Virus record (IMG/VR): IMGVR_UViG_3300042544_002979
Span: 1-41,674 of that record
DNA: 41,674 nt
DNA from: a virus
Reading direction: 5' to 3' (one strand)
In this document: positions 3,216 to 41,674 of the stretch, piece after piece
Layout: the number at the start of each line of letters is the position of its first letter
Numbering within the stretch: position 1 is the first letter of the stretch
Notes under the pieces: generated by a model
Seen by the model: only the letters and a program-made list of their open reading frames with translations
Told to the model about the DNA's origin: nothing
Databases searched by the model: none
Program-made: the position numbers and the translations under genes

Positions 3216-3220
3216 TTTTT

Positions 3221-3228
3221 CACCTCCC
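3221..3228 (-). promoter_or_regulatory. Strong Shine-Dalgarno sequence of the collagen-like fibre gene
   Basis: Read on the minus strand the sequence is GGGAGGTG, followed by AAAAA and then ATG. The five-base spacing is canonical. It fixes the start of the fibre gene at 3215. It stands out because nearly all other genes here have no purine-rich ribosome binding site. Confidence 0.7.
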
Positions 3229-3256
3229 GAGATATGTGCTATTCTTATTGCCTTCA

Positions 3257-3598
3257 TTAAGTGGATAAAATAGTTTGATAAAATAAGAATCCAGGACTTT
3301 GAAAGTCTATCGTGCTAATCAGATCTGATCCATAAACTGCGTTATTCCATAGTCCTTCCATGAAGTTACCTGCTGCGGTAGCTCCGATTGACCCTGTTGG
3401 CGCTAAAAATTCTAGCTTTGTCTGGAAGTTCCTACAAGAAGGAAGTGGGTTTGAACTATAGTCTATCCCGTTCAGAAAAATATAAAACCTATTTAATTCT
3501 GACCTATATGATCCAACGTTTTTGGGATTTACAGATAGTGTTAGAATATTACCATTAGAGTCAAGACCATATTTTATCTGAATCAGAAGACTTGACAT
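3257..3598 (-). CDS. Hypothetical protein, 113 aa, upstream of the fibre gene
   Basis: The protein starts MSSLLIQIKYGLDSNGN and ends just 41 bp before the fibre start. I do not recognise a family. It looks like a small soluble beta-rich protein, with alternating hydrophobic residues and a central stretch, LEFLAPTGSIGATA, like the linkers in the neighbouring virion proteins. There is no signal peptide or membrane segment. Its position between the tube-like gene block and the fibre gene suggests a small structural or attachment component, but this rests only on context. No Shine-Dalgarno sequence precedes the start. Confidence 0.6.
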   Translation of the reverse strand: MSSLLIQIKYGLDSNGNILTLSVNPKNVGSYRSELNRFYIFLNGIDYSSNPLPSCRNFQTKLEFLAPTGSIGATAAGNFMEGLWNNAVYGSDLISTIDFQSPGFLFYQTILST

Positions 3599-7880: not shown

Positions 7881-9590
7881 TTACTGAACAGGGGAAATTC
7901 CTCCAAGCCTACTAGGGTCAACAGTTTGGTTAATTTGATCGGCAGTTCCTATACCAGTTCCTAGATTGTATTCATAATTCAATAAAGTTGATGTGTTATT
8001 TCCAGAAGAGAAAGCTTGCAGATAAACTAATTTATTAGATGTTGAATTGAAAGGAGATCCAAAGTAGGTTAATCTCACATGTCTACATCCTCCAGTAGCG
8101 GAAGGGAGAGTAGTTGTAGGTGAATTTCCCGCTGAATCTATTATTTTTATTTTATTGGCATTATTGAGAGAGGAAATATTAGTATTTATATAAACACCTC
8201 CTATAGAATAAGACGACGAATTCATGTAAATATCAACCACGGAAACGTTTCCAGCTTCAACATACGGATTTTTAAATCCGGTTACATTAAGCCAAATTCT
8301 ATTTGCTCTAAAATCAGATTCAATTGATCTAGAAGGATTTGGGGTTACTACAATAACATCTCCATCGGGAACAATCGTAATTGCTGGATTTAATAAGAGT
8401 GTGGTCACAGTAAATCCAGCAATCCTTCTTGTAGCTATAACGCTTACCGTTGAAGAAACTGTATCTGTAATATTCTGATAAGATTTAACTACGAAAGCTC
8501 CGGTTCCTCCGGTTATTCCGGTTGCCCCTGTAAATCCAATTCCAATATTTGAATAATTAGATCCACCAGTAACTCTAAATAGAGAATTCCCTCCCATGGA
8601 GAGATTAAGAGCTCCTGAATTAGATACTCCAGTATAGGAAAGCGCTGTTTGGGAATCTTTTAAATCTGAATTTACAGTTAAAGCGTTGGAAGAACTTGTA
8701 GTGCTTAAGCTAAATCCTCCACTATTTTCTCTAAATTCTGCTCTACTATTATTTAGGGAAATGTTTCTTCCAAGAAAACCTATCGAAGAGGAATTTATGT
8801 TGATTCCCCCCGTTCCAGTAATGGTAGCGGTATTAGAAGAAAATCCAACATTATTTCCTATCAAGGAAACAGTTCCACCTGTAGAACTATAAGTTCCAGT
8901 TGCTTGAGACTGAATAGCAATGGCATCATCGGAAGAGAATTGAATATTATAATCAGACCCTGTACTTCCCCATCTAAAAGAAGGTAGATTTGAAGATTGA
9001 TAAAAAGTCTTATCAAAAGAGAATATTGGAAGTGAAGCAGTTAAAGAAGCATCGGTTGAGACTAAAACCTTTGAATAAGTTGGATTTGCATTATTTACAT
9101 TGACAAGAGAATCACTAAATACAAAAGTTGTAATTGGCTGATTTACCAAAGCAGTCGGTCCAATAACTATTGCATTATTTTCATTTACTTCTCCTGGGCC
9201 ACTTATTCCAGACACAACAGTAAAAACTCCTTCGGATATGAAGTTATATGGGGTACTTACCCAAGATGATCCATTGTAGGTATATATTGGTTGGTTTCCT
9301 GAAGGCGATGAATCGATCCAAATATCTCCAAATATAAGAGGTCTTTCGTTAGCAGGTAGTGAGACATAAGGGGCATTTTCTTGAAAATACCAATTAGTAG
9401 CCCTCTGGCCTGTTGCTCCGGGTAGTCCATCTCTTCCCACTTGTCCTACGATACCGGTGGAACCAATGGGTCCAAATTCTCCAGGTAATCCAGTAGAATT
9501 AGAAAGGATCTGAGAAAAATTATAATTAGTCTTTGCTATTATTTGATTTTTATCGTCTCCCGGAAGTATGTAGTTGGTATTAAAGTTCAT
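7881..9590 (-). CDS. Collagen-stalk fibre protein, 569 aa (paralogue of next gene)
   Basis: The N-terminus carries an N-Y-N-F-S-Q-I motif (residues 22-28), then a short Gly-X-Y stalk (about 34-62, LPGEFGPIG... GRDGLPGATGQ). A module follows with GDIW (88-91), a GSSWVS strand, a SGISGP turn and NPTYSKVLVSTDAS. The rest is Ser/Gly/Asn-rich repetitive beta structure, like fibre shafts. The same order of motifs occurs in the 494-aa gene directly upstream, 2 bp away. The N-terminus probably anchors to the virion and the C-terminus faces out; this is inferred from fibre families. Receptor binding or capsid decoration are both possible. No Shine-Dalgarno sequence. Confidence 0.75.
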   Translation of the reverse strand: MNFNTNYILPGDDKNQIIAKTNYNFSQILSNSTGLPGEFGPIGSTGIVGQVGRDGLPGATGQRATNWYFQENAPYVSLPANERPLIFGDIWIDSSPSGNQPIYTYNGSSWVSTPYNFISEGVFTVVSGISGPGEVNENNAIVIGPTALVNQPITTFVFSDSLVNVNNANPTYSKVLVSTDASLTASLPIFSFDKTFYQSSNLPSFRWGSTGSDYNIQFSSDDAIAIQSQATGTYSSTGGTVSLIGNNVGFSSNTATITGTGGININSSSIGFLGRNISLNNSRAEFRENSGGFSLSTTSSSNALTVNSDLKDSQTALSYTGVSNSGALNLSMGGNSLFRVTGGSNYSNIGIGFTGATGITGGTGAFVVKSYQNITDTVSSTVSVIATRRIAGFTVTTLLLNPAITIVPDGDVIVVTPNPSRSIESDFRANRIWLNVTGFKNPYVEAGNVSVVDIYMNSSSYSIGGVYINTNISSLNNANKIKIIDSAGNSPTTTLPSATGGCRHVRLTYFGSPFNSTSNKLVYLQAFSSGNNTSTLLNYEYNLGTGIGTADQINQTVDPSRLGGISPVQ

Positions 9591-9592
9591 TT

Positions 9593-11077
9593 TTATGCGG
9601 TAAGAATTCCTGAAACTGAAGGTGTATCATAGTAAACTATCCAAGAACTGGCTAATCTAACAATGTTTATTGAAACCGATGAAGTTGCAGTAAAAGTTCC
9701 TGCGGTTAGAGAAGTTGTTCCGTTTGTAGTCAATGAAATTCCAGAGAGAGTATTAGCAGTAGAAGAACTAAAAACATTCATTTGATAAGATTCCCCAACT
9801 CCTATAAGATCTGAAAATCCGGTAGGACCAGGCATCAGGGGAATAGCAATTCCTGCCCCCGTAGCTCCATTTCCTAAAAAACTAACCATTGCAATATTAC
9901 CGTTTGTAATAACGCTGGGGCCAACTAAATTATAAAACTTATTGCTTACCTGATAATCTCCAGTCCCTCCCCTAGTATTTGTAGAATAAGCATAGAGGGT
10001 TTTATCGAATTTTATTTTTCCGTCTGATCTAACAGAAAATTTACTAGAAGAAGCCGTAGAAAAATTAGCCAAGAATCTACTGGTTGAAGCAGTTCCTGTT
10101 AAATTAACACTAATTCCTCCTCCTGTGCTTGTATTTACAAAAGAAGCCATGGATGAACCAGAAAAAGATCCATTAATGGTGATAGGGATATTAAATACAG
10201 CAGACGCTCCATTTAAAACCAATTGATTAGAATTTACCAAAAGATTTGAAGTTCCAGAATTTAGATTCATCAATCCAGAAGTCGTAAAACTCATGGACGT
10301 ATTAGCAGTTAAACTTGAAGAAATTCCGGAAACTGTAATGTCTCCGTTGGTACTTTGAAGATTTAAATTTTTACCAGCTATTATGTCTAGGGAATCTGAA
10401 GGTGACACAAATCTAATAGCGTAATCTGTAGAGGATGGATTTTTCCAATCAAAATAAGGATGTCTATTATAATCAGAAGGAAGAGCGGTATCTTGATCCA
10501 TTAAATTACTTTTTGCAAATTCTAATAAAGGAAATCCATTAGATGCATTAGTAGCAATTAAAAATTTAGAATATGTTGGATTTGCAGTAGCAGGAATAAC
10601 TCTATCGTCGCTCAAAACAAAAGTATTATTCCCAGGAGTAGAAGAAGACTGTACTATTGCATTTTTCAAAGATGCATTTGACGGGCCAGTTATTCCAGTT
10701 AAAGTTGTAAAAACGTCTTGAGCTTGTAAGCTCTGACCTGTAGATACCCACCCACTTGTTGTATAAATAGAAACTGCTTTATTAAATGACGGGTTTGTAT
10801 TTACCCAATAATCCCCAACTAAAAGTACTTCGTCGAATCCTGTTTGAGTTTCTGGAGCAATATTAGAAAGGAACCATCTAGTCCCTCTTTCTCCAGGAAC
10901 TCCTGTATCTCCAATTGGACCTTCTGGTCCTATTGGTCCTTGATCCCCTTGTTTTCCGTCTGCACCTTGAGGTCCTCCACCGTTTGCAACGATAGCATCA
11001 AAATTCTGATTTATTTTATTGATCAGATCTTCTTGGGTATCCCCAGGGTTAAGATTTATTATGGTTAAGTTTGGCAT
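9593..11077 (-). CDS. Collagen-stalk fibre protein, 494 aa (paralogue of previous gene)
   Basis: Starts with a globular anchor containing INKINQNFDAI (about 19-29) and a Gly-X-Y stalk of about 30 residues (35-65, GPQGADGKQG and onwards) with more charged and Pro residues than the giant fibre. It then has GDYW (88-91), SGWVS, TGITGP and NPTYSKFLIATNAS in the same order as the neighbour at 7881-9590. The C-terminus is a different Ser/Thr/Gly-rich beta region ending PSVSGILTA. The pair has conserved N-termini and diverged ends, as expected for fibres that attach alike but contact different ligands. An AATATATA element lies 16 bp upstream of the start. Confidence 0.75.
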   Translation of the reverse strand: MPNLTIINLNPGDTQEDLINKINQNFDAIVANGGGPQGADGKQGDQGPIGPEGPIGDTGVPGERGTRWFLSNIAPETQTGFDEVLLVGDYWVNTNPSFNKAVSIYTTSGWVSTGQSLQAQDVFTTLTGITGPSNASLKNAIVQSSSTPGNNTFVLSDDRVIPATANPTYSKFLIATNASNGFPLLEFAKSNLMDQDTALPSDYNRHPYFDWKNPSSTDYAIRFVSPSDSLDIIAGKNLNLQSTNGDITVSGISSSLTANTSMSFTTSGLMNLNSGTSNLLVNSNQLVLNGASAVFNIPITINGSFSGSSMASFVNTSTGGGISVNLTGTASTSRFLANFSTASSSKFSVRSDGKIKFDKTLYAYSTNTRGGTGDYQVSNKFYNLVGPSVITNGNIAMVSFLGNGATGAGIAIPLMPGPTGFSDLIGVGESYQMNVFSSSTANTLSGISLTTNGTTSLTAGTFTATSSVSINIVRLASSWIVYYDTPSVSGILTA

Positions 11078-23920: not shown

Positions 23921-24607
23921 ATGGATCAAAAACAAACCGCCAACAAAAACGCTGTAAAGAGAAAACCTAAAGGTGAAATCAAATTTGCACTCGCTCTAAA
24001 CGAAGAACAAAAAGCAGCAAAATCAGAAATCCTAAAAAATGTAGTTACCTTAGTAAAGGGACAGGCAGGATCGGGAAAAACTCTATTAGCTTGTCAAATA
24101 GCTCTAGATCTATTCTTTAATCGAGAAATCGAAAAGATTATCATCACCAGACCAGTAGTTGATGCAGCAGATCCAATGGGATTTCTTCCTGGGGATATTA
24201 AAGCAAAGATGGACCCTTGGTTAGCTCCTATTTACGCAAACCTTTACATGCTATACAACAAGGAAACTATCGACAAAATGATAGAAAGTCAGACTATAGA
24301 AATTCTGCCTTTTACATTCGTTAGGGGTAGAACTTTCGTAGATGCTATGGTTATCGTGGACGAATGTCAAAACGTTAACGGAAAGCAAACTGAAATGATA
24401 GTAGGAAGACTTGGTACAAATTCCAGAATGGTATTCTGCGGGGACACTTCTCAGATAGATTTAAGATCTAAGAAAGACTCAGGAATAGACTTCTTCAAAA
24501 TTCTAGAAGCTAGAGTTGAGGGGGTTAAAGTAATTACTCTTCTAAAGAACCATAGAAATCCTATCGTTCCTAAAATTCTCGATATCTACAGAGAATACGA
24601 ATCTTAA
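23921..24607 (+). CDS. phoH: PhoH-like P-loop ATPase
   Basis: 228 residues, the usual length for phage PhoH (short form with only the ATPase domain). Walker A is GQAGSGKT (47-54), Walker B is MVIVDE (143-148) followed by CQN, the sensor-like motif is CGDTSQIDL (173-181), and the terminal KNHRNP (209-214) includes the arginine-finger position. The N-terminal 22 residues are a lysine-rich extension. PhoH proteins are RNA-binding ATPases related to helicase superfamily 1; the phage role is unproven. It is the only plus-strand gene, divergent from the 298-aa gene. It converges on the propeller gene with a shared TTAA that supplies both stop codons. No Shine-Dalgarno sequence. Confidence 0.95.
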   Translation: MDQKQTANKNAVKRKPKGEIKFALALNEEQKAAKSEILKNVVTLVKGQAGSGKTLLACQIALDLFFNREIEKIIITRPVVDAADPMGFLPGDIKAKMDPWLAPIYANLYMLYNKETIDKMIESQTIEILPFTFVRGRTFVDAMVIVDECQNVNGKQTEMIVGRLGTNSRMVFCGDTSQIDLRSKKDSGIDFFKILEARVEGVKVITLLKNHRNPIVPKILDIYREYES

Positions 24608-27600
24608 TTTCCACTAAAAGTAGCGTCTGGATCGTTCTTTAGAATTAATCCAGAACCAAATGGCTGTCTCATTTCTTCAAGAATAACCGCCTGCTGTTCC
24701 AAAAGATCCTTGCTCAATTGGGCTGAGTTATTTCTATCTCCTGGCATAACCTGAGGATATCCATAATCTACAGAATTCACATATTCCGGGTTTGGATCTG
24801 ATTCAGAAGGAACAGATTGATTGAATACCTTGATAAAGGCTGGCTTTGATATTTGGTAGACATTACCTAAAGAATCCTCAACTTTATTCTCTATTGAATA
24901 GTATCCCACCTCAGTAAAGGTGTAAATAAAATAAGGGATTGATTTAACATCTAAAATAACAGTTCCGCTAACTTCATCTTTTAGAATCCATTGATTATTT
25001 TGTTTTCCAAAAATATTAGATCCGTAATTAGTAAAGAAAACTGTGGATAAAAGAGGAACTGGAAGATCCCCGTATGAATCGTGAACGTCTGCCCAAGTCC
25101 AAGCTCCAGATCCAGCTCTAGAAATTATATTTCCTAAATCAATACCGACTCCTGGAATATACTGGGGAATTAAGGAAGCAAAAGAACTATCTGTTGTTGA
25201 AGAAACGACAGGTAAACTATCAGGACCAGTTGATCCAATTCTATATCCACCAATCAATAAATTATCTTTTTCGTCTAATGCAAGTCTCAGGTGTCCAGTT
25301 CCACCGACTAAAATAGAACCATTTAATCCACCATACTGGTTGATCTTATAGATATTATTAGTAGCGGTTCCTCCTTGACTAAAGACAGAATAGAAAATTT
25401 GTCCTTCTTTTCCCATTTCAATATCATCAATTCCAATAGCAGTAGAATTTAAATCTACCGGAAGTATTTTATTACTAGATAGTGTTGTAAAAGACTGAGA
25501 AGGTGTAATCTCAACAGTCAATAAACTATATCCATTGTAATTTTCCTCCTGTGAAGCTGTATAAGATCCAAAAGAAGCAGTTCCTGAATAGGTTGTTCCG
25601 AAGAAATATTTTCCATCTCTGTATCCAGAATCTATTCCTTGGTCTGTATCAATTGGAGCAGAGTTTGTTTGGATAAAATTGTAAGACGAAACTGAAGGGG
25701 TATAATTAGAGATAAGGTAGAAAGGTAAAACTCCAGAAGTTCCACCGGTAACAGATGTTCCTAAGAAACTAAAACTAGGGCAATCAGAAGTTCCCGTAAT
25801 TAAATACGTTAAAGTTCCTTGATCTTTCTGAATCGAATTAAAAACTTTATTTCCGCCCGTTCCATAGGTTGCATTAGTTTTTAGAAGTTCTAATTCTGTC
25901 CCTAGAGAAATCCAAAATCCATCTTTTAAATAAGATGAAGAATTCCAGGAAGAAAATAAAAATTCGGAAGTTTCTATGCTATCCAAAGTTCTTCCGTACC
26001 CATTTTTATAAGTTGAAATTCCACCTTCTAAAGTTCCAACTATATCAACATCATAATCAGAAACTGATAGAGATAAAGTTTTTTCATAGAAAGCTGTGTC
26101 TATAGTTGAAGATGAAGAAAGAGGATCATAAATTGAACTTGCTCCAGGGAAAGATCTGAAATTCTTAAGTCTATAAGAAGTTTCTAAAGAACCAGTAGAT
26201 CCGAAATTTATTCCTCCATAAGAAGTTTGATTCCCCAGATTTTTTTCTATTTCCATCACAAAAATTCCAGGTACTGAAACATTGACAACTGATATTGTGG
26301 TAACAGGAAGAAATGGACCTGTAGCAGGAAGAGTTTGTGTTCCGTTGTAGATCCAAGGGTAAAGATAAGGGCTTCCTGTAATTCCAGGAGTTTGTACATT
26401 AGAAAAACCGATTGGTCCTCCAATAGGACCTGTCATTCCGGCTGCTCCTGGATAAACAGAAGACCAGATGAGATCTCCAGCTTCAATGTATCCTTTATAT
26501 GATCCTAAAACGTAAAGGGACTTTTGATCTGGGGACGATTGTACATCCCACACCTCAGTTTCTTCACCTCTGATTGTAATAACGTCTTGAATTTGACCAT
26601 TCTCGTTATAATAAGAAATGTATCCAACTTTTTGTCCGGATCTTGGAATACTTGATAAAGTCGGATTTGGATTGTTAAGAACCAGAGGTTCTAAATTATT
26701 TTTTAATCCAAAATATGCGGTGTCTAAAGTGGTATATCCTCCAACTATATATTTTCCATCCAGATATGTGGAAGAAGTATTTTTAGTTACTCCACCAGTT
26801 ACCCCATTAACCCAAGAAGAATTTTGTAACGATTGTGCTAATTGAACAGAATCAAAATTAGGAATTTGTCCGAGATTCCAGTAGTCCTGGGTTCCAGCTG
26901 TACCGTCGGCAATTGCTTTTAGGTTTGCTTCTAAAAATAAATTTCTAGGATCTAATCCTGGATGTTTATACTGAAGATCATAGTTTTGATAGTTTCTCCA
27001 AGAAGGATAATTCCAGGTATACTTGTCAGCTTTAGGTAAAGCCGCTTCGTCAGTAGTTAAAGCTTCTGTTGTTGGAGTATAATCTACAAAATTCCATCCG
27101 GTAGTTCCTGCATATTTTGATGAAGCATAAACGTGAGGAATAACATAATCAAATAGTCCAATAGAAGTTTCATCAGCTACAAATATGTCATTTGGAAATA
27201 TTTTAAGCCCGATATTAACCGATTTATTCTCAACCAGCATAATAGAAACTATATTATCAGTAGGAAGAGAAGAATTAGAAGAATTATAAACAGTAAGAGT
27301 ATCCCCGTTGAAGTAATACAATCCAGTTCCTTGTGAGTTTAAAGGATTTCCAGCGCTAAAGAAAACGTGTCCATTTGGTCTACTTTGGACAAATCTAATT
27401 TCATTGCTTCCTAAATTTGGTAGAGTTGTATCGTCCCAAACGTAGAATTTATTTTGGTCCCAATAAACTAGACCTGCAGAAGTTCCAATCCAAAGATTAC
27501 CATTTTCATCAAAATCTAAAGAATAAACTATATCAGAAGGGAGAGAGGTATTTTTACTGTTCCAGACTGTAGAATTTTCTATATAAGGCTCTCCTCCTTC

Positions 27601-28215
27601 TAAAGAAGAAACGCTAAGATCCCCGTCCGGAATTATATAAATTCCGTATTGTGTTGCTAGGTAATAGCTAAATCTATATCCGTCTATTCCCTTTGCTTTA
27701 ATATCATAAATGTGTGGCCAAACAAAATCAGGTGCATTTTCAAACCAAGTTTTTAAGACAGTGCTATAAGTATAAAGACTTCCTCCGGTAACTCCAAAAA
27801 CTCCAGCAGGTCCAGTTCCAGCTCCTCCATTTAAAGGAGAAATAAAAGCAAGAATTTCGTCGCCAAAGGGAGATGCATAAATAGTAGGAACATCTAAAGC
27901 CTGAGATCCAGACCCAGTAATCTCGGAAGCAGTCCAGCTAGATCCAGTAGCAGCATAAGGTCCTGCTGCGCTAAAAACTAAAGGGGTTGGCAAAGAAGGT
28001 GAATAAGCACATCCCACCCATTTAGTTGAATTTGGAGATATAGAAATACTTCTAGTATCTAAATAATATGGGATATTTCCCGGAACTACGGAATTGGTAG
28101 AATCATAATAGGTCCAAGAAGACCCATCAAATTTAGTTAGATCCCTCCCAACTGCCCATACGTTATTAAATTCGTCTAGAGCTGTTCCGTTAATATATGC
28201 TGATGTACTTGCCAT
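24604..28215 (-). CDS. Beta-propeller virion protein with two-component-regulator-type repeats, 1,203 aa
   Basis: The N-terminal ~330 residues contain repeats of the regulator-propeller type: ALDEFNNVWAVGRDLTKFDG (12-31), ISISPNSTKWVG (56-67), SLDFDENGNLWIGTSAGLVYWD (about 230-251) and a GTGLYYFNGDTLTVYNSSNSSLP segment (about 298-320). Each has the D-x-x-G/N-N-x-W-x-G turn and a 'y-t-x-x-n-S-x-L-P' ending. A long middle region holds further beta repeats of the 'G-x-Y-x-x-G' kind. Around 1040-1130 there is an Ig/PKD-like domain (FIYTFTEVGYYSIENKVEDSLGN). Such propellers are typical sensor domains of Bacteroidetes hybrid two-component systems that bind oligosaccharides. Its place after the PKD gene suggests a surface-binding virion component, inferred. 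There is no signal peptide, consistent with cytoplasmic virion assembly. Confidence 0.7.
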   Translation of the reverse strand: MASTSAYINGTALDEFNNVWAVGRDLTKFDGSSWTYYDSTNSVVPGNIPYYLDTRSISISPNSTKWVGCAYSPSLPTPLVFSAAGPYAATGSSWTASEITGSGSQALDVPTIYASPFGDEILAFISPLNGGAGTGPAGVFGVTGGSLYTYSTVLKTWFENAPDFVWPHIYDIKAKGIDGYRFSYYLATQYGIYIIPDGDLSVSSLEGGEPYIENSTVWNSKNTSLPSDIVYSLDFDENGNLWIGTSAGLVYWDQNKFYVWDDTTLPNLGSNEIRFVQSRPNGHVFFSAGNPLNSQGTGLYYFNGDTLTVYNSSNSSLPTDNIVSIMLVENKSVNIGLKIFPNDIFVADETSIGLFDYVIPHVYASSKYAGTTGWNFVDYTPTTEALTTDEAALPKADKYTWNYPSWRNYQNYDLQYKHPGLDPRNLFLEANLKAIADGTAGTQDYWNLGQIPNFDSVQLAQSLQNSSWVNGVTGGVTKNTSSTYLDGKYIVGGYTTLDTAYFGLKNNLEPLVLNNPNPTLSSIPRSGQKVGYISYYNENGQIQDVITIRGEETEVWDVQSSPDQKSLYVLGSYKGYIEAGDLIWSSVYPGAAGMTGPIGGPIGFSNVQTPGITGSPYLYPWIYNGTQTLPATGPFLPVTTISVVNVSVPGIFVMEIEKNLGNQTSYGGINFGSTGSLETSYRLKNFRSFPGASSIYDPLSSSSTIDTAFYEKTLSLSVSDYDVDIVGTLEGGISTYKNGYGRTLDSIETSEFLFSSWNSSSYLKDGFWISLGTELELLKTNATYGTGGNKVFNSIQKDQGTLTYLITGTSDCPSFSFLGTSVTGGTSGVLPFYLISNYTPSVSSYNFIQTNSAPIDTDQGIDSGYRDGKYFFGTTYSGTASFGSYTASQEENYNGYSLLTVEITPSQSFTTLSSNKILPVDLNSTAIGIDDIEMGKEGQIFYSVFSQGGTATNNIYKINQYGGLNGSILVGGTGHLRLALDEKDNLLIGGYRIGSTGPDSLPVVSSTTDSSFASLIPQYIPGVGIDLGNIISRAGSGAWTWADVHDSYGDLPVPLLSTVFFTNYGSNIFGKQNNQWILKDEVSGTVILDVKSIPYFIYTFTEVGYYSIENKVEDSLGNVYQISKPAFIKVFNQSVPSESDPNPEYVNSVDYGYPQVMPGDRNNSAQLSKDLLEQQAVILEEMRQPFGSGLILKNDPDATFSGN

Positions 28216-28229
28216 TTATGTATTTATCT

Positions 28230-29942
28230 TTAATAGATTGATCCTCCAAAAATTAGATCATTATAATAGGGAGCATTGTTAGGAAAGTTCCCCGGGTTCC
28301 CGGAAGGTCCTACAGAGAACATTCCGGTGCAGGTCTCGGTTGATCCTTGTGTATTAAAATAATTTCCCATAAAAGGAGCTACCGTTACTAGGGGAGTGCT
28401 CAAAGTCGCAGAATTATCAGTTATAGTAACCAAAGAGATTGCAGGGGTTTTTATTTCAAGAGAAACCCCATTGAATCCAGCAGAATCATATCCAGTTCCG
28501 TTAAGAATTGAAAATATAGGATTAGCCTTAAATTCTAAAGAAGATAATCCTCCAAAGGGAATACCGGATAAGTTTATAGCGCTATTTAGGATGCTGACAA
28601 ATCCCTGTCCATTACTATTATCTTGAGCGACATAGTATTCACCAGTTACCAGATCATTCCCGGTTGGTCCATTAAAATTAACAACTATTGGGGTTTGCGG
28701 TAAATTATTAAATGTGACTGAAATGGTAACGGTATAAACAGGAGTAGGAAGAGGAGGTAGACCCTTAGATATCAAAGCTTGAGGGGAATACACAACAGGA
28801 TTAGAATTACTTCCTCCCCCTGTGTCTACAAATGTCATAGGGGTTCCAGGAGCTCCACTCTGATTAATATACTGAATATTTCCACTAAAAATTATCTTGT
28901 AAGGATTTACTATTAGATAGCTAAGAAGGTCAGGATTGTAATTGTAATTGTTATAGAGATTTGAAAGAAGACCACTTTCGTCAATTAGAAAAATATCTGG
29001 ACTTTGACCCGATACAATATAATTACCTAAGCTAATAGCAGAATCAACAGGAACTGCCGAAAATTGGCTGTAGATAGGAGCCTGTATTATTAAAAATCCA
29101 TTTATAATATCATTATAATTTGGTGACCATAAACCAGTAAGCATAGTAACATTTCCGATCTCGTTGGTCGAATGAAAATAAAGATTTGAATTATTACCAA
29201 ATCCTCTAAGTCTATAATCTAATTTAATAACAAGATTAGTATTTGCAGGATATCCAAAATCCGATCCTATTGCAGGAATATTTCCGGGAAAAACCACAAG
29301 TCCTCCGGAAAGTCCCGTCACGTATTGACTAGGATTAGATCCTGTTGCATTTAAATATAAATTTTCTAGAGGTCCTAGCTTAGAAACATCAACTGTAGTG
29401 GAAGAAGTACTGTTAAGAGTAGTTCCTGAAATGTTAGCAGAAGAGGTCAAAGAAATATTTCCCGTATATGTAGAACCTGGTGCTCCAGAATAAGTTCCAG
29501 TTAAGGTGTTCCAATCCCCATATCCGGTAACCCCAACATTTTGTGTGGTTGCAGATCTTCCATAAGGAAGAGTCCAAGCCCAAGAGGTTGGTGCAAAGGG
29601 GGTTCCTGTACTTGCATCGTCTAATTGATATCCCTCGTCCATCTTAACCGACGCAGGGGAAGGGCCAGAAATTCCAGCAGTTAAACTTGAAGGAGAAACC
29701 TGAATGATATTAACCTCAGTTAAGGATTTAGTTGTTCCGAAGTTGTCAGTTTCCGTCAAGGTAACACTATATGTTCCAGGAACTAGATACTTTATATTTG
29801 TTGGACTAGAGGTTAAAGGATTTGGAGTAGTTATAGGGGTCCCTCCAGGAAAACTCCAAAGTCTTGTCAAAGGAAGAGCTCCTGTACTAGTGTCAGTAAA
29901 ATTTACTGTCTGATATTGGTATATTTGTAAAATGTCTGCCAT
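28230..29942 (-). CDS. PKD-domain virion protein, 570 aa
   Basis: Residues about 8-85 form a clear PKD domain: VNFTDTSTGALPLTRLWSFPGGTP, then PTNIKYLVPGTYSVTLTETDNFG with the expected W-x-F-x-G-G-T-P and Y-x-x-P-G-T-Y-x-V-x-L motifs. Residues about 88-185 are a second, divergent PKD-like unit (SPASVKMDEGYQLDDASTG, then PTSWAWTLP). The remaining 380 residues are beta-rich and unrecognised. PKD domains are Ig-like folds common in Bacteroidetes secreted and surface proteins, where they assist polysaccharide or protein contact. Here there is no signal peptide, so it is likely a virion component. It sits 13 bp downstream of the 1,414-aa gene and 14 bp upstream of the propeller gene. Confidence 0.75.
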   Translation of the reverse strand: MADILQIYQYQTVNFTDTSTGALPLTRLWSFPGGTPITTPNPLTSSPTNIKYLVPGTYSVTLTETDNFGTTKSLTEVNIIQVSPSSLTAGISGPSPASVKMDEGYQLDDASTGTPFAPTSWAWTLPYGRSATTQNVGVTGYGDWNTLTGTYSGAPGSTYTGNISLTSSANISGTTLNSTSSTTVDVSKLGPLENLYLNATGSNPSQYVTGLSGGLVVFPGNIPAIGSDFGYPANTNLVIKLDYRLRGFGNNSNLYFHSTNEIGNVTMLTGLWSPNYNDIINGFLIIQAPIYSQFSAVPVDSAISLGNYIVSGQSPDIFLIDESGLLSNLYNNYNYNPDLLSYLIVNPYKIIFSGNIQYINQSGAPGTPMTFVDTGGGSNSNPVVYSPQALISKGLPPLPTPVYTVTISVTFNNLPQTPIVVNFNGPTGNDLVTGEYYVAQDNSNGQGFVSILNSAINLSGIPFGGLSSLEFKANPIFSILNGTGYDSAGFNGVSLEIKTPAISLVTITDNSATLSTPLVTVAPFMGNYFNTQGSTETCTGMFSVGPSGNPGNFPNNAPYYNDLIFGGSIY

Positions 29943-34775: not shown

Positions 34776-36503
34776 TTATCTATTTGCAGCTATTAATTGT
34801 GCTTTAGTTTCAGCATTAAGTTCAGAAAGATAATTAACAGGGACAAATCCACTAATTGAAATATTCAAAGCAGAAGGTTTACCTGGTACTACCCCAAGTT
34901 CATAGTACATCCCATTTCTATCGTTCCATCCCCCTCTCAAAACTACTAGTTCTCCCCTCCCAATAATAATGTCTCCGAATTGATCAAATCCTATATTAGT
35001 TGTAAGCTGACTTGTGCTAACGTTAGGGAGGAAATCTACAGTTGCATGGTAAGCTTCATTGGCTTGTCCTACAAAATAGAAGCTAACCGAGTCAACCCCA
35101 GGAATAGATTCTATAAGAGCAATCATATCAGACTTTGGAATTTTATCTCTTCTCTTTAGATTTATCATGTAAGAAGAAATAGAAGCTTGAATCTTATCTT
35201 TAATAATCTCAGGATCATATCCCTCGAAAACAGTTAGAACTGCGTTTCCTACAAACCTTTGAATAGTAGGCTCTATTATTTTAACAACAGTAGTTGCTAT
35301 CATAGACCCTGAATCTTCAATAAGATTTAAAATTGCCAATTTTTGTGCATTCGTCAAAAGAAAACTTGAAAGAGGAATACTAAAATAGTCCTCATTAGAA
35401 GATAAACCTATCGTTATATCAGGAATTAAATACAAGTAAACAACATTATCGTCATCTAAGTATTCATCATCAAAGGTAGAAAATGCTTGTATCTGAGAAA
35501 ATATATTAAATCTCTGTAAGTAAATTTCATAGTTTCCAGCATTAGCAAAAACAAAAGCTCTGCTTGTCTTCGGAGCTGCAAGTCTTGTAATAGAAATTGG
35601 TTCTTCATTAGCTCCAAAAGAAGGATCTACCGTATTGACAATTTGAAGGTAGTCATTAAGATTTACTTCTGCCCCAAATAAATCAGTACCTGTATCTAAA
35701 AATCTGTAAGTAATTTTACTGGTAGAGGTAGATCTAAGATTTCCAGCAAATCCTAGAGTTTGTAAATATTGAACTTTAATCAAAGATCCTCTTGGTGGAA
35801 CTTTTCCAAAATTAGAATTTCCAAAATAAATGTCTATTCCCTCGCTAATTCCGGTCTTTACTAAATACCCTTCTCCCTGAAGAGGAATATCATAGAGAGA
35901 ATCATATTTTTTCCATTTGTTATCGTTGACTGTAGTGTTGATATAAAATTGATCAACAAGAGATCCTCCTTTGATTGGGATGTTAAAACTTTGGAGTGCA
36001 GCCCCGTTTCCAGTAAATATAGTCTCATTAAAAGTTCCTTGCACAATTTTAAACCTAAAAGAATTTCCTCTGGTTAAAGGAATCTTTACTCTAGGTCCAT
36101 TTAGAATAATAGTATAAACGAGTCCATTTTGATCACATTGGATTCTGGTATTTTCCTGTAGTAAAACTGCTCCGCCTCCAGTGGTAGTTGCTTTAGTGTT
36201 CCAGGAGACTTCAATTTCACCTTGGGCTCCCATGGCTCTTGCAGGATCATATCCTGCTATTCTAGCCAAACTTCTAACCGAGTAGTCTCTAGTAGCTTCA
36301 TAGATATTTAATTCTGTAATCGAATCTTCGATGAAGTAAAGAATTAGCTGGGATAGGTTTTCAAGAACAAATAATATTTGTCCCCAAGCAGAAGCAGTCG
36401 TAAAGACATTTCTTGTTTGATTGAAAGTTTGCTGCAAGAAATTATAGGTCGTGTTTAAAAGACCTCTAATTAAAATATTATTTTTCTGAAAAATATTATT
36501 CAT
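34776..36503 (-). CDS. Baseplate wedge protein, gp6-like (baseplate J family)
   Basis: 575 residues, a little shorter than T4 gp6 (660). The N-terminus is helical (40-75, GQILFVLENLSQLILYFIEDSI), then YSVRSLARIAGYDPARA (74-90) and GEIEVSW, as in gp6-type proteins. The hallmark of the baseplate-J fold is at 227-239 (FGNSNFGKVPPRG), followed by IKVQYLQTLGFAGN (242-255). The C-terminus has the conserved helix and strand pair around SMIATTVVKIIEPTIQRFVGNAVLTV. It forms the inner ring of the contractile baseplate with the gp25-like protein encoded 9 bp upstream. Confidence in the family is high; the exact T4 equivalence is inferred. Confidence 0.85.
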   Translation of the reverse strand: MNNIFQKNNILIRGLLNTTYNFLQQTFNQTRNVFTTASAWGQILFVLENLSQLILYFIEDSITELNIYEATRDYSVRSLARIAGYDPARAMGAQGEIEVSWNTKATTTGGGAVLLQENTRIQCDQNGLVYTIILNGPRVKIPLTRGNSFRFKIVQGTFNETIFTGNGAALQSFNIPIKGGSLVDQFYINTTVNDNKWKKYDSLYDIPLQGEGYLVKTGISEGIDIYFGNSNFGKVPPRGSLIKVQYLQTLGFAGNLRSTSTSKITYRFLDTGTDLFGAEVNLNDYLQIVNTVDPSFGANEEPISITRLAAPKTSRAFVFANAGNYEIYLQRFNIFSQIQAFSTFDDEYLDDDNVVYLYLIPDITIGLSSNEDYFSIPLSSFLLTNAQKLAILNLIEDSGSMIATTVVKIIEPTIQRFVGNAVLTVFEGYDPEIIKDKIQASISSYMINLKRRDKIPKSDMIALIESIPGVDSVSFYFVGQANEAYHATVDFLPNVSTSQLTTNIGFDQFGDIIIGRGELVVLRGGWNDRNGMYYELGVVPGKPSALNISISGFVPVNYLSELNAETKAQLIAANR

Positions 36504-36512
36504 CTATGTTAA

Positions 36513-36884
36513 TTATGTTACCTGTAATGTTATGATTGGACTCTTTGTTGATTGAGAGGAAATATAAAAATCTATTGTGGCTATATCCCTCATAGTTCCC
36601 TGATAAAATTTCAAATCAAAGTATCCACCAAGTTCATAGAACAAAGTGCAATAAGTGTTGATTTGAAAATCTATTTCTTTTTTGATAGAAGTTTCGGAAA
36701 GCTCCAAATTAAAAACTAATTCATCTAAGCTAATTCCAAATTCAGGGTCACCTAAAACTTCTCCTTTGTTGGTTAAAAGAAGCATCTTCAATTGACCTAT
36801 GCAGATCTCGATGGGATCTGTAGTTTCAAGTATTCCTTCTTTATATCCGAAGTCTCCTGGATCTCTATTGTAAATCTCTATCAT
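36513..36884 (-). CDS. Baseplate wedge protein, gp25-like
   Basis: 123 residues against 132 in T4 gp25. The core is ICIGQLKMLLLTNKGEVLGDPEFGISLDELVF (27-58), the signature of the gpW/gp25 family (iL-T-x-x-G-E ... PeFG-x-x-L-x-x-l-F). A two-helix region and a strand-rich C-terminus (ATIDFYISSQSTKSPIITLQV) complete the fold. It starts the baseplate block after the 167-bp spacer, with a GATATATA element 20 bp upstream and no Shine-Dalgarno sequence, and is followed directly by the gp6-like gene. The gp25/gp6 pairing is a near-universal baseplate arrangement, which supports both calls. Confidence 0.9.
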   Translation of the reverse strand: MIEIYNRDPGDFGYKEGILETTDPIEICIGQLKMLLLTNKGEVLGDPEFGISLDELVFNLELSETSIKKEIDFQINTYCTLFYELGGYFDLKFYQGTMRDIATIDFYISSQSTKSPIITLQVT

Positions 36885-37051: not shown

Positions 37052-37825
37052 TTAATTCCACTGAAGGAAATATGAAGGAGTATTCTCACCATTTATCATT
37101 TCCATTACCTCCTGCATCTCTGCATCTCCCATTGCTTTTATCTCTGAAAAGTTAACTTGAACTCCACCTGGAAGATTATAATTGAAAGCACCAATAACTC
37201 TTGCTAAACTTTGCTTTGCTTTTGCTCTGCAGTATCTGGAGAAAAGTTCATCGTCAAATAACTCATGATCTTCAATTGCAACAAAGCAGCTAACTGCCAC
37301 GGACTTAACATAGTTGTTCGGCCCAGTTCCCACGTTGTTAGGTGATCCTGCAGGATTTCTTCCTAGTATCGTAAGTTTCTTAGTGTTCTTGTTCCATCTG
37401 AATGCAAAAGTTTCTAATAAATAAGCTTTAGCTAAATCGAAATAAGAATACATTACTGTTCTATAAACCAAGTTGTCTCCCATAAAAGGAGATAGAAGAA
37501 GTTCAGAACCAAGAAGTTTTGAACTCCCAAAGTCTCTGTCGGGGTTTCCAGAAACACCAGGATTATTTGCTTCCCTGACATCGAAAACTGTTACAATCTT
37601 ATCCGGAAGTTGAATTTGTCTCGTCTTTAGAAATTCTTGTGTAGAAAAAAGAGTAGAACCTAGAACAAAGAATCTTTGCTCTACCGCATATTGATAGTTA
37701 TCATACATCCAAGCTTTCGCTCTATTGATAATTCTAATTATTTCTTGATCGTTTAAATTGTATGGAAGGGAACAAGATGCGGAAAGATCGTCTTTAATGT
37801 CTTGTATTAATTCTGCTTCAGTCAT
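37052..37825 (-). CDS. Neck/connector-like protein, 257 aa
   Basis: Opens with MTEAELIQDIKDDLSASCSLP and a helix with IIRIINRAKAWMYDNYQYAVEQRFFVL (29-55). It has a beta strand pair IQLPDKIVTVFDVRE (71-85), then LVYRTVMYSYFDLAKAYLLETFAFRWNKNTKKLTILGRNP. The C-terminal part has helices rich in Ala and Arg (FSRYCRAKAKQSLARVIG). This plan (helix, strand pair, helix, long strand, Arg-rich helix) recalls head-tail connector or tail-completion proteins, such as those of the T4 gp13/gp14/gp15 region, but I cannot match a family. It ends at the 167-bp spacer and starts 5 bp after the amidoligase-like gene, so it belongs to that transcript. Other small virion assembly proteins are possible. Confidence 0.45.
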   Translation of the reverse strand: MTEAELIQDIKDDLSASCSLPYNLNDQEIIRIINRAKAWMYDNYQYAVEQRFFVLGSTLFSTQEFLKTRQIQLPDKIVTVFDVREANNPGVSGNPDRDFGSSKLLGSELLLSPFMGDNLVYRTVMYSYFDLAKAYLLETFAFRWNKNTKKLTILGRNPAGSPNNVGTGPNNYVKSVAVSCFVAIEDHELFDDELFSRYCRAKAKQSLARVIGAFNYNLPGGVQVNFSEIKAMGDAEMQEVMEMINGENTPSYFLQWN

Positions 37826-37830
37826 TTTAG

Positions 37831-39249
37831 TTATAGTTTTTTATACTTCCAGTTTTGATCTTTGAAAGATTGAGGTTTATAAAGAGTATTTGAGTCCTTT
37901 AATCTAGAATCGGAAACGAATCTAGCTTTTCTAACGTCATCAAAATCTTTCACCTCTTCAGTTTCTTTAGAAACTTTTGCATTTCTTCCAAGATCTGCCT
38001 TTCTAATTACTCCACCTTTTATATTACAGTCTATGGATTTTCCTGCGCAGTCTATATAACACTCTTCTAAACTATTAGAATATTCAGCAGATGTGTTTTT
38101 AACTTTGCTATTTTCGATTGTATTTCCTGTTAGTAATTGAGAATCTTCTACTTGGCAATTTTTAACTTTACAAGAATAAAGATTGCAATTGATAACTCTA
38201 GATCCTTTGATGTCACAATTAAGAAGGTCAAAATCTGTAATATAAGAAGCATCCCTGCATCTTGCATCTTTTAACTGAAATCTTCCTGTTGAAGTATCAT
38301 AATTAAAGAACCCGTGACGAACTCCCCCTTCTACGATAAGATCAAAAACTTTGTCTCTGATCATAGGGAAATAAGTCTTGATGTTCTCTTCAAATCCTTT
38401 TAGATCCACCAACAAGTGGAAATCTGGATAATTCATGAAGAAAGCTCTAGGATCCGAAAAACTTTTTACTACCTTTGAGTATTCTTTCATCATTTTCTTT
38501 AACGTATCAAGATCTTTCTGTGAATATGTAGATCTTCCGCTGAGAATATTATAAAGATGAATTATGACATAGTCAAGAATTTCTCTAATTTCAGATATTT
38601 TCTTTTGATAATCTCTACCTCCTAAATATCTGATTTCGATATAGCCGTCTTTTAATTTTGTAAAATTAGCTCCGTAATATTTGTCGTCCGGAAGTTTGAA
38701 TAACTTAGGATCAATTGTTGTTAGATCGTCAATAGAAGAGAATCTATTTCTAGGAACTATCTTCTTGATTGACTTTGCATAAACGTTATTCATTCTATTT
38801 CCAAACTTAGAATAGATCATTCCCTCGTCAATTCCTAAAATGAATTGAAGTCTGTCAAGATTTTCCATTCTCATTCCTACATCTTTTCTCATTTTATCAA
38901 AACTGATATTAAACTGAAAAGCACATTTATCATTTGTCCACCCGTTTTCATCTATCCATTTAAGAACTTTGATGAGAACCGGAATTGCTTCGGCATATGG
39001 AAGTGGACCAGTGATAAGCTCGTTCATTTTACTCCCCCCTGAATAATCAGGCTCAAGTTTAAAAACGGATTGGGTAACTGGAATTTTTGAGTGGTATCTA
39101 GACGAAAGTATTACTTTTTTTCCTAATAACTTAGATAGGGATTCCACAATTCTTCCTCTAACCATATTGGAAAAGAATTCGAATTCAAATCCAATTATGG
39201 AAGCATTTAGAGCTTGTAGTCTATCAAAGTGATTTTGGAAATTAGCCAT
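37831..39249 (-). CDS. Amidoligase-like protein with C-terminal Cys-rich beta-helix, 472 aa
   Basis: Residues 1-300 resemble glutamine-synthetase-fold amidoligases (COOH-NH2 ligases): GFEFEF (20-25) as the first strand with acidic metal ligands, ELITGPLP (77-84), CAFQFNIS (109-116) at the place of the usual C-G-x-H-V-H-x motif, YYGANF (191-196) and YIEIRYLGG (203-211) for the typical T-I-E-F-R strand. The normal His of the third motif is replaced, so activity is uncertain. Residues about 328-415 are short repeats (CDIKGSRVINCNLYSCKVKNCQVEDS) of a pentapeptide or beta-helix type, rich in Cys. The family typically makes amide or isopeptide bonds with ATP. The start overlaps the S1-like gene by 8 bp. 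A role in modifying virion or host proteins is inferred. Confidence 0.6.
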   Translation of the reverse strand: MANFQNHFDRLQALNASIIGFEFEFFSNMVRGRIVESLSKLLGKKVILSSRYHSKIPVTQSVFKLEPDYSGGSKMNELITGPLPYAEAIPVLIKVLKWIDENGWTNDKCAFQFNISFDKMRKDVGMRMENLDRLQFILGIDEGMIYSKFGNRMNNVYAKSIKKIVPRNRFSSIDDLTTIDPKLFKLPDDKYYGANFTKLKDGYIEIRYLGGRDYQKKISEIREILDYVIIHLYNILSGRSTYSQKDLDTLKKMMKEYSKVVKSFSDPRAFFMNYPDFHLLVDLKGFEENIKTYFPMIRDKVFDLIVEGGVRHGFFNYDTSTGRFQLKDARCRDASYITDFDLLNCDIKGSRVINCNLYSCKVKNCQVEDSQLLTGNTIENSKVKNTSAEYSNSLEECYIDCAGKSIDCNIKGGVIRKADLGRNAKVSKETEEVKDFDDVRKARFVSDSRLKDSNTLYKPQSFKDQNWKYKKL

Positions 39250-40408
39250 TTACGATGTCTGCAAATATTTTACCCATTACTGGGTCAATCTCATATACTA
39301 AAATACCAACTCTGTCTCCAGGTCTGATATCAGCATCTGAGTCTATTCTTTCTTGTGGTATCATAGCCATCAAACCGGATTCTGGTAATTCAACTAAGCA
39401 ACCATTTTTTCTTCTGTATTTAACAATTGCCGCCATTTCTGAAATTGTTCCTTTTTCAACAGCCTCTTTAATTTCATAAAGCTTAACAATTTTTTCTACA
39501 GGTGCTTCAAAGCTAAGAGTTAGTTTATTGTCTTCTTTAACTTCTCTTACATAGAATTCAATTTCGTCTCCAGGATTGAATCCTTGAACGGTTTGATTTG
39601 GAAATTCCGTTTTATGAATTAGACCAGTGTAAAACTCTTCCCATTCAACAAACAAGCCAAATGAAGAAGATCCGGTAACAGTACCTTGGTACTTCTTAGT
39701 TAAATCTAATTCTTGAATTTTTTGACCTATGATTTTGCTTAGATATTTCTTGTAAGAAACTACGAAAATATCTTTTGGTGCAACATAACCGTCTATCATT
39801 ACATAGATTGTTTTACCTACTAGAGATTCAAAATCTGTAATTTTATTTGCTGCTGCAAGTGATCCAGGAAGGAAACACTTAACACCCGAAATGTCAACTA
39901 AATATCCTCCTTTATTAATTGCTTCAACTTTTGCTGGATAAGCTGTAGAAGCAGATTTAATTTGATCGAAGAATTCATCTTTTAAATTTTGTACATAACA
40001 ATCAACAATTGATCCATAATAAGATCCGTCTATTTCCTTAATTAAAGTTTTAATGGATGTTCCTATCGTAAAATCAAGACCTTGTATTCCTAATTTCTGA
40101 GCATCTTTTCTTTCTTTCTTTAGGTCTAAATAGATTGTTTGACCTGAGTCGGTGTGGGCAAATCCACTATCTTTATCTGTGCTAGTAATTCTGCACGTGT
40201 ATACTTTTCCTTCTTCTAAATCCTTTCCTGATTCTAGATTTCCGGGATTGATTCCTCTATATGAAGCATATAATTCTGCAGCATATTTTTCGTGGGAATA
40301 AATTTTGATGTAGCTTGGGGTTTGGATTTTTTTATTTACGATGAATCCGCTGGGTAGATCCCAGTTAAATGTTTCTGTTTCTTTTTCTAATAGAGAAATT
40401 ACTTGCAT
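39242..40408 (-). CDS. S1-domain (ribosomal protein S1-like) RNA-binding protein, 388 aa
   Basis: Contains three to four OB-fold S1 repeats. A degenerate one lies at about 65-140 (GKVYTCRITSTDKDSGFAHTDSG), a second at about 154-222 (AYPAKVEAINKGGYLVDISGV and FLPGSL), and the clearest at 238-300 (KKYQGTVTGSSSFGLFVEWEE, TGLIHKTEF and the closing PGDEIEFYVREVKEDNKLTLSF). The fourth is at 322-386 (AAIVKYRRKNGCLVELPE, PGDRVGILVYEID). The G-x-V-x-x-x-x-x-F-G-x-F-V and P-G-D motifs are diagnostic of S1. The order resembles a shortened bacterial S1 (which has up to six repeats). It probably binds mRNA or ribosomes. It heads a block with the overlapping amidoligase-like gene and has a GATATATA element 30 bp upstream. 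Confidence 0.85.
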   Translation of the reverse strand: MQVISLLEKETETFNWDLPSGFIVNKKIQTPSYIKIYSHEKYAAELYASYRGINPGNLESGKDLEEGKVYTCRITSTDKDSGFAHTDSGQTIYLDLKKERKDAQKLGIQGLDFTIGTSIKTLIKEIDGSYYGSIVDCYVQNLKDEFFDQIKSASTAYPAKVEAINKGGYLVDISGVKCFLPGSLAAANKITDFESLVGKTIYVMIDGYVAPKDIFVVSYKKYLSKIIGQKIQELDLTKKYQGTVTGSSSFGLFVEWEEFYTGLIHKTEFPNQTVQGFNPGDEIEFYVREVKEDNKLTLSFEAPVEKIVKLYEIKEAVEKGTISEMAAIVKYRRKNGCLVELPESGLMAMIPQERIDSDADIRPGDRVGILVYEIDPVMGKIFADIVNG

Positions 40409-41069: not shown

Positions 41070-41674
41070 TTATAGTTTTGTGATTGGATTAATCCCATCC
41101 CCCTCACCTCCGATGGAAACGGTCTTGGATTTTGTTGTCTCTATCATTGGTGCAGTAATGCTTGTCAGTTGGCTTTGAGCTGCTGCTATCTGTGTATTCA
41201 AAACCGTTAAAGCAGGAATAAGTGGTGAAAATATAGGTATTGCAGAGGTAACTGCAGTTTGAGCAATAGAATAAGTCTGCAAAGCAATCATTACTTCGTT
41301 AAGTCTACTCAATAAGGAATTTAGAGCACTTTCGTTATGATCCCCTAAAACTGCTGGTTGTTTACTTTCGTTTTCTAAACCTAAACTAATCTTTCCATCC
41401 TTGATGTGAATGACATTAGCACCCGGTACTTTAGAATTTGAGTTCAGATAGACCGAACTATCCATTCTGATGTTTAGCATGCTACCACCAAAATCCGAAA
41501 CGAATCCTTTACCGTTTTCTCCCCTGGTGAAAAATAATTTCAATCCAGTATCTCCATTTGAATTAACAGCATCCGTGTCATAAATTAGAGATTGAGCTCC
41601 CTCATAAGAATTAGATATTTCATCTAGCAGAGCTGGGGCAGTTTCTTTCTCAAATTCATAGAATATTTTATAGT
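41070..41674 (-). CDS. Hub/spike-like protein, C-terminal part only (5' end beyond window)
   Basis: The frame is open from the right edge to the stop at 41070, about 201 residues. The first in-window residues are YKIFYEFEKE. No Met codon lies upstream of the TTG at 41543, so this is the tail end of a longer gene and not a 157-aa protein starting there. The middle has a Val/Ile/Lys strand region (NIRMDSSVYLN, VIHIKDGKISLGLENE). Next is QPAVLGDHNESALNSLLSRLNEV, a 'P-x-V-L-G-D' helix entry seen at the C-termini of phage baseplate hub or spike proteins. After it comes a long Ala/Ile/Leu helix and a lysine-rich end. I infer a hub/spike or tail-tip protein; another baseplate protein is possible. 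Confidence 0.5.
   Translation of the reverse strand, partial: YKIFYEFEKETAPALLDEISNSYEGAQSLIYDTDAVNSNGDTGLKLFFTRGENGKGFVSDFGGSMLNIRMDSSVYLNSNSKVPGANVIHIKDGKISLGLENESKQPAVLGDHNESALNSLLSRLNEVMIALQTYSIAQTAVTSAIPIFSPLIPALTVLNTQIAAAQSQLTSITAPMIETTKSKTVSIGGEGDGINPITKL

Follow-up and report, generated by a model that had tools for sequence, protein, structure and literature searches.

Organization of the locus

The stretch of DNA analysed here, referred to as the window, comprises positions 1 to 41,674 (41,674 nucleotides) of IMG/VR virus record IMGVR_UViG_3300042544_002979. Its minus strand carries a real gene at positions 37,831–39,249, an ATG-initiated open reading frame of 472 residues whose product combines a glutamine synthetase (GS)-like domain with a C-terminal repeat solenoid. 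Baseplate-type, small and S1 genes lie upstream of this fusion gene, and neck, gp25-like and gp6-like genes lie downstream. A reading made from the sequence alone had placed the gene in a virion-type operon, and the tail and neck genes that surround it in the window bear this out.

41070–41672, minus strand: baseplate (hub-like) protein, truncated where the window ends (phrog_37871 'baseplate protein', E-value 3.4e-11)
39242–40408, minus strand: S1-domain protein (Pfam S1, 5.2e-17), sharing 8 nt with the 5′ end of the fusion gene
37831–39249, minus strand: whole fusion gene (472 aa), GS-fold amidoligase-like domain, helical linker, pentapeptide-type solenoid and conserved flexible tail
37052–37825, minus strand: neck or head–tail adaptor protein (phrog_211, 5.8e-11), beginning 5 nt after the fusion gene
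36513–36884, minus strand: gp25-like baseplate wedge protein, weak matches (phrog_261, 2.1e-4; Pfam GPW_gp25, 0.0049, below cut-off)
34776–36503, minus strand: gp6-like baseplate wedge protein (phrog_219, 8.5e-27)

The S1 protein (39242–40408, minus strand) resembles ribosomal protein S1 and is of an RNA-binding type that is odd amid tail genes; Pfam S1 matches it over two stretches in the window and over three in a related locus (L049). Elsewhere in the window, the minus strand encodes a long, collagen-like tail fibre that is truncated where the window ends (6–3257; nine stretches matching Pfam Collagen, 8.8e-102), a large protein matching a propeller repeat (24604–28215; Reg_prop, 3.6e-4) and a PKD-domain protein (28230–29942; 1.9e-5), while 7881–9590 and 9593–11077 give weak collagen-like matches below cut-off. 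A PhoH-like ATPase gene (23921–24607, plus strand; 1.6e-60) interrupts the minus-strand run on the opposite strand. An Rfam scan of the window gave no match at gathering score.

The fusion protein was compared with relatives from 211 sources, namely 210 loci and the window; the family was matched in 210 of these, the exception being a locus of Salicola phage SCTP-2 (L048). Some loci represent the same contig twice, and residue counts are therefore given over 136 distinct proteins of at least 380 residues, of which 77 form a Q clade that includes the window protein, and 17 and 42 form two H groups (HA and HB). Two of the family alignments hold 65 rows (A3) and 60 rows (A4). Within the fusion gene, the following parts are distinguished.

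38530–39231, minus strand: GS-like ligase domain, aa 7–240 (VIA Z 11.9; Pfam Amidoligase_2 at aa 19–115)
39175–39192, minus strand: G-x-E-x-E motif GFEFEF, aa 20–25 (E22 and E24 in 135/136 rows, the other row being a gap)
39004–39048, minus strand: D-x-S-G-G...E-L-x-T-G-P motif, aa 68–82, with EPDYS..ELITGP in the window protein (D68, E77 and T80 in 136/136)
38902–38925, minus strand: CAFQFNIS, aa 109–116, with Gln112 (38914–38916) for the canonical His and Asn114 at 38908–38910
38665–38682, minus strand: K-Y-Y-G-x-N, aa 190–195, equivalent of [RK]Y...N in reference amidoligases (K190, G193 and N195 in 136/136)
38629–38643, minus strand: YIEIR (E-x-R), aa 203–207 (E205 and R207 in 136/136)
38260–38529, minus strand: linker, mostly helical, aa 241–330 (DSSP on the AF2 model)
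37978–38259, minus strand: pentapeptide-type β-helix, aa 331–424 (model and profile matches)
37834–37977, minus strand: C-terminal tail, aa 425–472 (mostly modelled with low confidence beyond about residue 431)

The N-terminal domain has a glutamine synthetase-like fold

The AF2 model of the fusion protein, computed from a 60-row alignment, has a pLDDT of 89.1 and a pTM of 0.82. VIA-align, which re-aligns Foldseek's own matches and is not an independent search, superposes model residues 7–234 on residues 124–367 of Drosophila glutamine synthetase (Z 11.9; 3.4 Å over 177 residues), and all 50 VIA rows shown are GS or GS-type enzymes (Z 10.8–11.9). In the Foldseek search of the PDB, rows 1–13 are GS chains, followed by GS and pentapeptide proteins intermixed. 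The best BFVD row (E-value 5e-43) is an uncharacterised full-length relative; among the 50 rows, 22 are named amidoligase and 17 are nameless, and the amidoligase of phage Atu_ph07 is included in the fold match. Because matches to the GS part and, for Foldseek, pentapeptide chains take up these lists, the absence of other families is uninformative. The model is thus GS-like, as the sequence-only reading required.

Profile comparisons place the domain close to the amidoligases. Pfam Amidoligase_2 (PF12224) matches the window protein at residues 19–115 with an E-value of 2e-4 and 21.8 bits against a gathering cut-off of 22, and two fused relatives exceed this cut-off (G002 at 24.8 bits; G001 at 22.8 bits with its neighbours in frame). 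The same model matches 18 of the 65 members of alignment A3 at E≤0.01. The Atu_ph07 amidoligase itself lies above the Pfam cut-off, and hhalign aligns the family profile with it at an E-value of 1.5e-12, Q112 falling on its His. In PHROGs, the best match of the fusion protein (E-value 0.023) is to a family without function. The five motifs proposed from the sequence alone, GFEFEF (20–25), ELITGPLP (77–84), CAFQFNIS (109–116), YYGANF (191–196) and YIEIRYLGG (203–211), are present in the order claimed, and the Pfam E-value of 2e-4, the GS fold and the invariance across 136 relatives together put the amidoligase-like motifs and fold beyond chance.

The window protein has GxExE, D-x-S...E-[LIV], [RK]Y...N and E-x-R in common with Amidoligase_2 phage proteins such as that of Atu_ph07 (AUZ94978). 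It differs from the latter, which has no pentapeptide repeats by Pfam, in its fused solenoid and tail and in the change of His to Gln at position 112 that marks its clade. Salicola phage SCTP-2 gp124 and gp125 are more distant relatives encoded in tandem; they carry GxExE-type, H-x-S and E-x-R motifs and, unlike the window protein, have no Pfam match at all, pentapeptide included, and a ClpP-like gene nearby (L048, 6594–10354: gp125 and gp124 near the ClpP-like protease gene gp122). The first His of H-x-[HNS], shared by the six reference proteins compared, was treated as diagnostic; since the window protein has Gln112 at this position, it is not classed as a proven amidoligase, whereas its H-clade relatives carry this His.

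The likeness to glutamine synthetase is confined to the fold of the catalytic domain. Identity is 8–14% in the rows shown, the His is replaced, and the aligned part starts at GS residue 103–144 in the VIA rows shown, which indicates that the N-terminal GS domain is absent, as it generally is from amidoligases. A metabolic glutamine synthetase, carried as an auxiliary metabolic gene, would account for the GS fold; it is scarcely credible for a protein that lacks the N-terminal GS domain, bears the motifs of Amidoligase_2 and is encoded in a structural operon.

A pentapeptide-type solenoid and a conserved tail

The model of the C-terminal region shows a solenoid of about 11 short strands, which between residues 346 and 384 start at 346, 351, 356, 361, 366, 371, 377 and 382, that is, mostly in five-residue steps and once in a step of six. 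The family profile matches AlbG (chain 2xt4, 5.7e-6) as well as MfpA and Qnr chains. Pfam Pentapeptide_4 scores the window protein at 17.4 bits against a cut-off of 38, and matches 37 of the 65 A3 members at E≤0.01 (best 8.7e-7); as the cut-off is missed, the region is named 'pentapeptide-type' from its fold and profile only. The sequence-only reading had described a Cys-containing β-helix of no type known to it; the five-residue steps and the match to 2xt4 identify it instead as pentapeptide repeats. Its other claim, a ligase-like domain fused to a repeat solenoid, holds throughout the family, the C-terminal region being present in all 136 relatives counted. By its predicted structure, then, the protein is a GS-fold amidoligase-type domain followed by a pentapeptide-type solenoid and a conserved tail.

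Eight Cys residues occur from residue 331 on, five of them directly preceding a [DNKQ]-[ILV] pair and thus lying two positions ahead of the central hydrophobic residue. In pentapeptide repeats, this position is occupied by small inward-facing residues, and neither disulfides nor metal sites are therefore required to explain the Cys residues. The tail is conserved despite the low model confidence: N454, F462 and N466, as well as S427 and T430, are kept in all 77 Q-clade rows.

The solved relatives of the solenoid, AlbG, MfpA and Qnr, share its β-helix with mostly five-residue steps, and they raise the possibility that the protein acts through this part as a DNA mimic or topoisomerase-binding protein of the Qnr/MfpA type. 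This is very improbable. The solenoid is short and weakly acidic, with a mean net charge over residues 331–430 of only about −3.5 (range −7 to 1 in Q and −9 to 1 in H), and the GS-like domain is fused to it in 136 of 136 rows. The matches in NCBIfam follow the same pattern of repeat similarity: for the window protein only QnrA is found (E-value 0.01, 15.7 bits against 450), and over the 65 A3 members the most frequent match is HalA, weak, in 17 (best 9.4e-5). HalA is the effector of the anti-phage Hailong system, and its matches probably reflect shared pentapeptide repeats.

The fused family is carried by giant phages

With the single window protein as query, 47 relatives were found in IMG/VR; an alignment query returned at least 512 relatives among 598 candidate stretches, of which the best 80 were kept, and an H-type alignment query at least 492 among 599. 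Six uncultured huge-phage records of 462–735 kb contain relatives at 29–34% identity over 89–93% of the query, two of these records, which agree in length and place, looking like duplicates of a single genome. The family profile matches 10 of 10 large records, eight of which hold the fused form (211 to 735 kb) with one long match each; in the 735-kb record a further match covers only the pentapeptide part. PF12224 matches 3 of the 10, two of them fused, and none of 14 control genomes; the Pfam model thus detects the fused form in two of the eight large records that hold it. Since Pfam finds 3 of 10 where the family profile finds all 10, standard annotation overlooks much of the family. The 735-kb phage record also shows four adjacent paralogous repeat proteins (cluster 44; L050, 919–4542) upstream of its amidoligase gene.

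A scan of genome contigs yielded two relatives among 156 candidate stretches, one in a Deltaproteobacteria MAG contig and one in a Bacteroidetes MAG contig, and these different phyla indicate no firm host. The search of the phage collection found no isolate carrying the fused family. Among the matches listed from the open-licence literature, none describes the GS-like/pentapeptide fusion or its place in a tail operon. A survey of huge phages (PMC7824862) has the word 'amidoligase' once, in a reference title, and PMC12619734 reports glutamine synthetases in nine moraphages. Among the matches listed, PMC12419801 is the one in which phage, amidoligase and pentapeptide repeat all occur, and one paper, on a podovirus, combines amidoligase with virion and mass spectrometry.

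A single His-to-Gln switch in a conserved pocket

The putative pocket is strongly conserved. E22 and E24 are kept in 135 of the 136 relatives, with one gap, and D68, S70, E77, N195, E205 and R207 in all of them. Rather than a conserved loss of metal ligands in proteins without a β-helix, which would have spoken against the sequence-only reading, the family thus keeps both its acidic ligands and E-x-R across the 136 relatives. Across the 77 rows of the Q clade, 52 of 240 positions are strictly invariant, and the seven pocket residues tested all belong to these (hypergeometric 1.6e-5, gaps being ignored and positions and rows taken as independent), although identity within the clade falls to 33% between pairs and to 43% with the window protein. 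The ratio dN/dS for the GS-like part, calculated for the window against two related loci (L007 and L012), is 0.036 and 0.041, which indicates strong purifying selection, and 0.10–0.19 for the laxer solenoid and tail; dS is near saturation, and these ratios are meaningful only as orders of size.

The exception is residue 112, where 59 of the 136 relatives have His and 77 have Gln. We take the equivalent His of glutamine synthetase to be a metal ligand. Positions 112 and 114 together read His-Asn in 59 proteins, Gln-Ser in 58, Gln-Gly in 18 and Gln-Asn in one, the window protein. In the alignment with six reference phage proteins, the first position of the motif is His in all six and the second is His in two, Asn in two and Ser in two, as follows.

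Porphyromonas phage: CGMHVHIN
Christensenellales phage: CGIHIHVG
Vibrio phage: SSHIHINVS
Atu_ph07: TGFHINIG
SCTP-2 gp124 and gp125: SGLHISIS

Since the second position varies among the references, only the first change, His to Gln112, is unusual. The sequence-only reading had the His of this motif replaced by Phe/Asn; aligned with TGFHINIG and CGMHVHIN, CAFQFNIS places Gln112 at the first position and Asn114 at the next. An alignment slip in this Q/N register is ruled out by the agreement of MAFFT and hhalign. In a quick, unrooted tree of 65 rows, built without the motif columns, one change suffices to separate Q from H (SH-aLRT 99).

The extent of change beyond residue 112 was assessed on 24 Q, 9 HA and 34 HB representatives, near copies having been merged at 80% identity. 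Among 37 residues invariant (≥97%) in both H groups, eight drop below 90% in the Q clade: H112 and N114 are changed outright, and K94, F117, P150, Y191, Y192 and G211 partly. The acidic ligands and R207 are not among the eight. In a rough control over residues 1–240, HA-invariant residues are kept equally in Q and HB (0.81 and 0.81), whereas HB-invariant residues, H112 and N114 included, are kept less in Q (0.77) than in HA (0.84). Y191 and Y192 are lost together in a 19-row subclade, being NM in 18 rows and NL in one.

Plain relaxed decay as the sole reading is rejected on the invariance comparison, the pocket conservation and the low dN/dS. On these comparisons, the replacement of His by Gln looks like a specific swap rather than general decay; that only one residue is exchanged in an otherwise intact pocket speaks for a site that works or at least binds a ligand. 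As one catalytic His has become Gln and the active site is otherwise preserved, the protein may be a retuned enzyme that modifies phage particles.

The main rival explanation is that the domain has been exapted as a scaffold: the Q clade, at least, would no longer ligate, and would serve the structure or assembly of the tail or neck by binding a nucleotide, a metal or a peptide, with the solenoid and tail as docking surfaces. We consider this a real possibility that nonetheless falls well short of probable. The loss of a His common to all six reference proteins, the further loss of Y191 and Y192 in the 19-row subclade, the structural-gene operon and the conserved tail all agree with it. It is at odds with the retention of all acidic ligands and E-x-R across a clade that has diverged down to 33% pairwise identity, and with the H groups, which have the same architecture and keep the whole site. 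Pocket invariance, as read from the alignments, fits a ligand-binding structural role as well as catalysis, and by itself separates neither.

Genomic neighbourhood of the three groups

Neighbours were counted at one locus per distinct protein (Q group 77, HA 17, HB 42). A neck gene lies within 60 nt downstream in 74 of the 74 Q loci with room for it and in 16 of 17 HA loci. The 150 nt upstream include an S1 gene in 59 of 64 Q loci and in 16 of 17 HA loci. In HB, 0 of 38 loci have an S1 gene upstream and 1 of 42 has a neck gene in the 1.5 kb that follow; over the 31 HB loci with 5 kb on both sides, neck genes occur in 8, hub-like genes in 9, gp25-like genes in 2 and a gp6-like gene in 1. By these counts, the link to tail genes is very strong in Q and HA and weak to moderate in HB. 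The recurrent HB neighbours, clusters 2, 3 and 4 (in 28, 28 and 26 of 46 loci), have no function assigned beyond one weak tail-sheath match (E-value 0.044). A baseplate-hub/tail-lysozyme-like gene is found in 13 of the 46 HB loci and a neck-like gene in 10; a further neighbour, in 13, is presumably FKBP-like. A weak DHH-phosphoesterase match also lies near the amidoligase gene in 29 of the 46 (for example, L140, 10263–11891).

The distant relative in the isolated jumbo phage Atu_ph07, AUZ94978, is encoded two genes from the portal gene on the opposite strand. Counting from the major capsid protein (gp215 in PMC6102473, AUZ94997 in the record), it is gp196, and falls inside the CDS 170–215 cluster that PMC6102473 describes as rich in structural proteins.

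These neighbourhoods also bear on where the protein would act. The usual prediction for phage amidoligases is that their substrates lie at the cell surface, and an active enzyme, expressed late or injected, could modify a component of the cell envelope or a host protein. Such a host-directed role would suit the HB group, which mostly lacks the neck and S1 neighbours, and recalls Vibrio phage vB_ValP_IME271, in which an amidoligase-like gene adjoins a gene annotated as ATP-grasp. We regard it as unlikely, given that the gene keeps to its position next to the neck and S1 genes in the Q and HA groups and that the Pfam scan of the fusion protein found no wall-binding domain. No GATase or ATP-grasp partner was found among the 21 window proteins scanned with Pfam.

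A possible tail-associated ligase

The explanation we favour, tentatively, is that the fusion protein is a giant-phage carboxylate–amine ligase of GS fold, equipped with a solenoid and a tail, that is made together with tail and neck proteins and probably acts on them. The fold, the kept pocket residues, the one switch from His to Gln and the operon in two of the three groups are observed. ATP and a divalent metal would be bound in the GS-like pocket through E22, E24, E77, E205 and R207; a carboxylate would be activated by phosphorylation and then joined to an amine of a virion protein or assembly partner, which the solenoid and tail may dock. The change of His112 to Gln, once in the branch of the window protein, would retune the handling of metal or substrate with the rest of the site kept. 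The catalytic steps, the partner and a place in the virion are what we infer from these observations.

Several features of the sequences are against a ligase: the Q clade is without the first His, and its 19-row subclade without Y191 and Y192; the tail-gene link is weak in HB; HB-invariant residues are less kept in Q; and GATase and ATP-grasp are missing among the 21 proteins. A bolder form of the ligase reading, which we hold to be rather doubtful, is a dedicated, ATP-dependent protein ligase, produced along with the tail, that would amide-link or cross-link a tail or neck protein as the particle assembles, with the solenoid as ruler or dock and with Gln used by the Q clade in place of the catalytic His. 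To our knowledge, a GS-fold active site with Gln for its catalytic His is of a kind known nowhere else.

Many giant phages carry the fused protein, often among tail-building genes, yet most members of the family escape standard annotation. The H and Q clades, as they occur in nature, offer a ready comparison of a GS-fold site with and without its His. Amide modification of virions is otherwise mainly known as self-catalysed cross-linking, as in HK97. If active, the fusion protein would provide an enzymatic amide modification of a virion; if inactive, it would clearly exemplify the conversion of an enzyme into a virion component.
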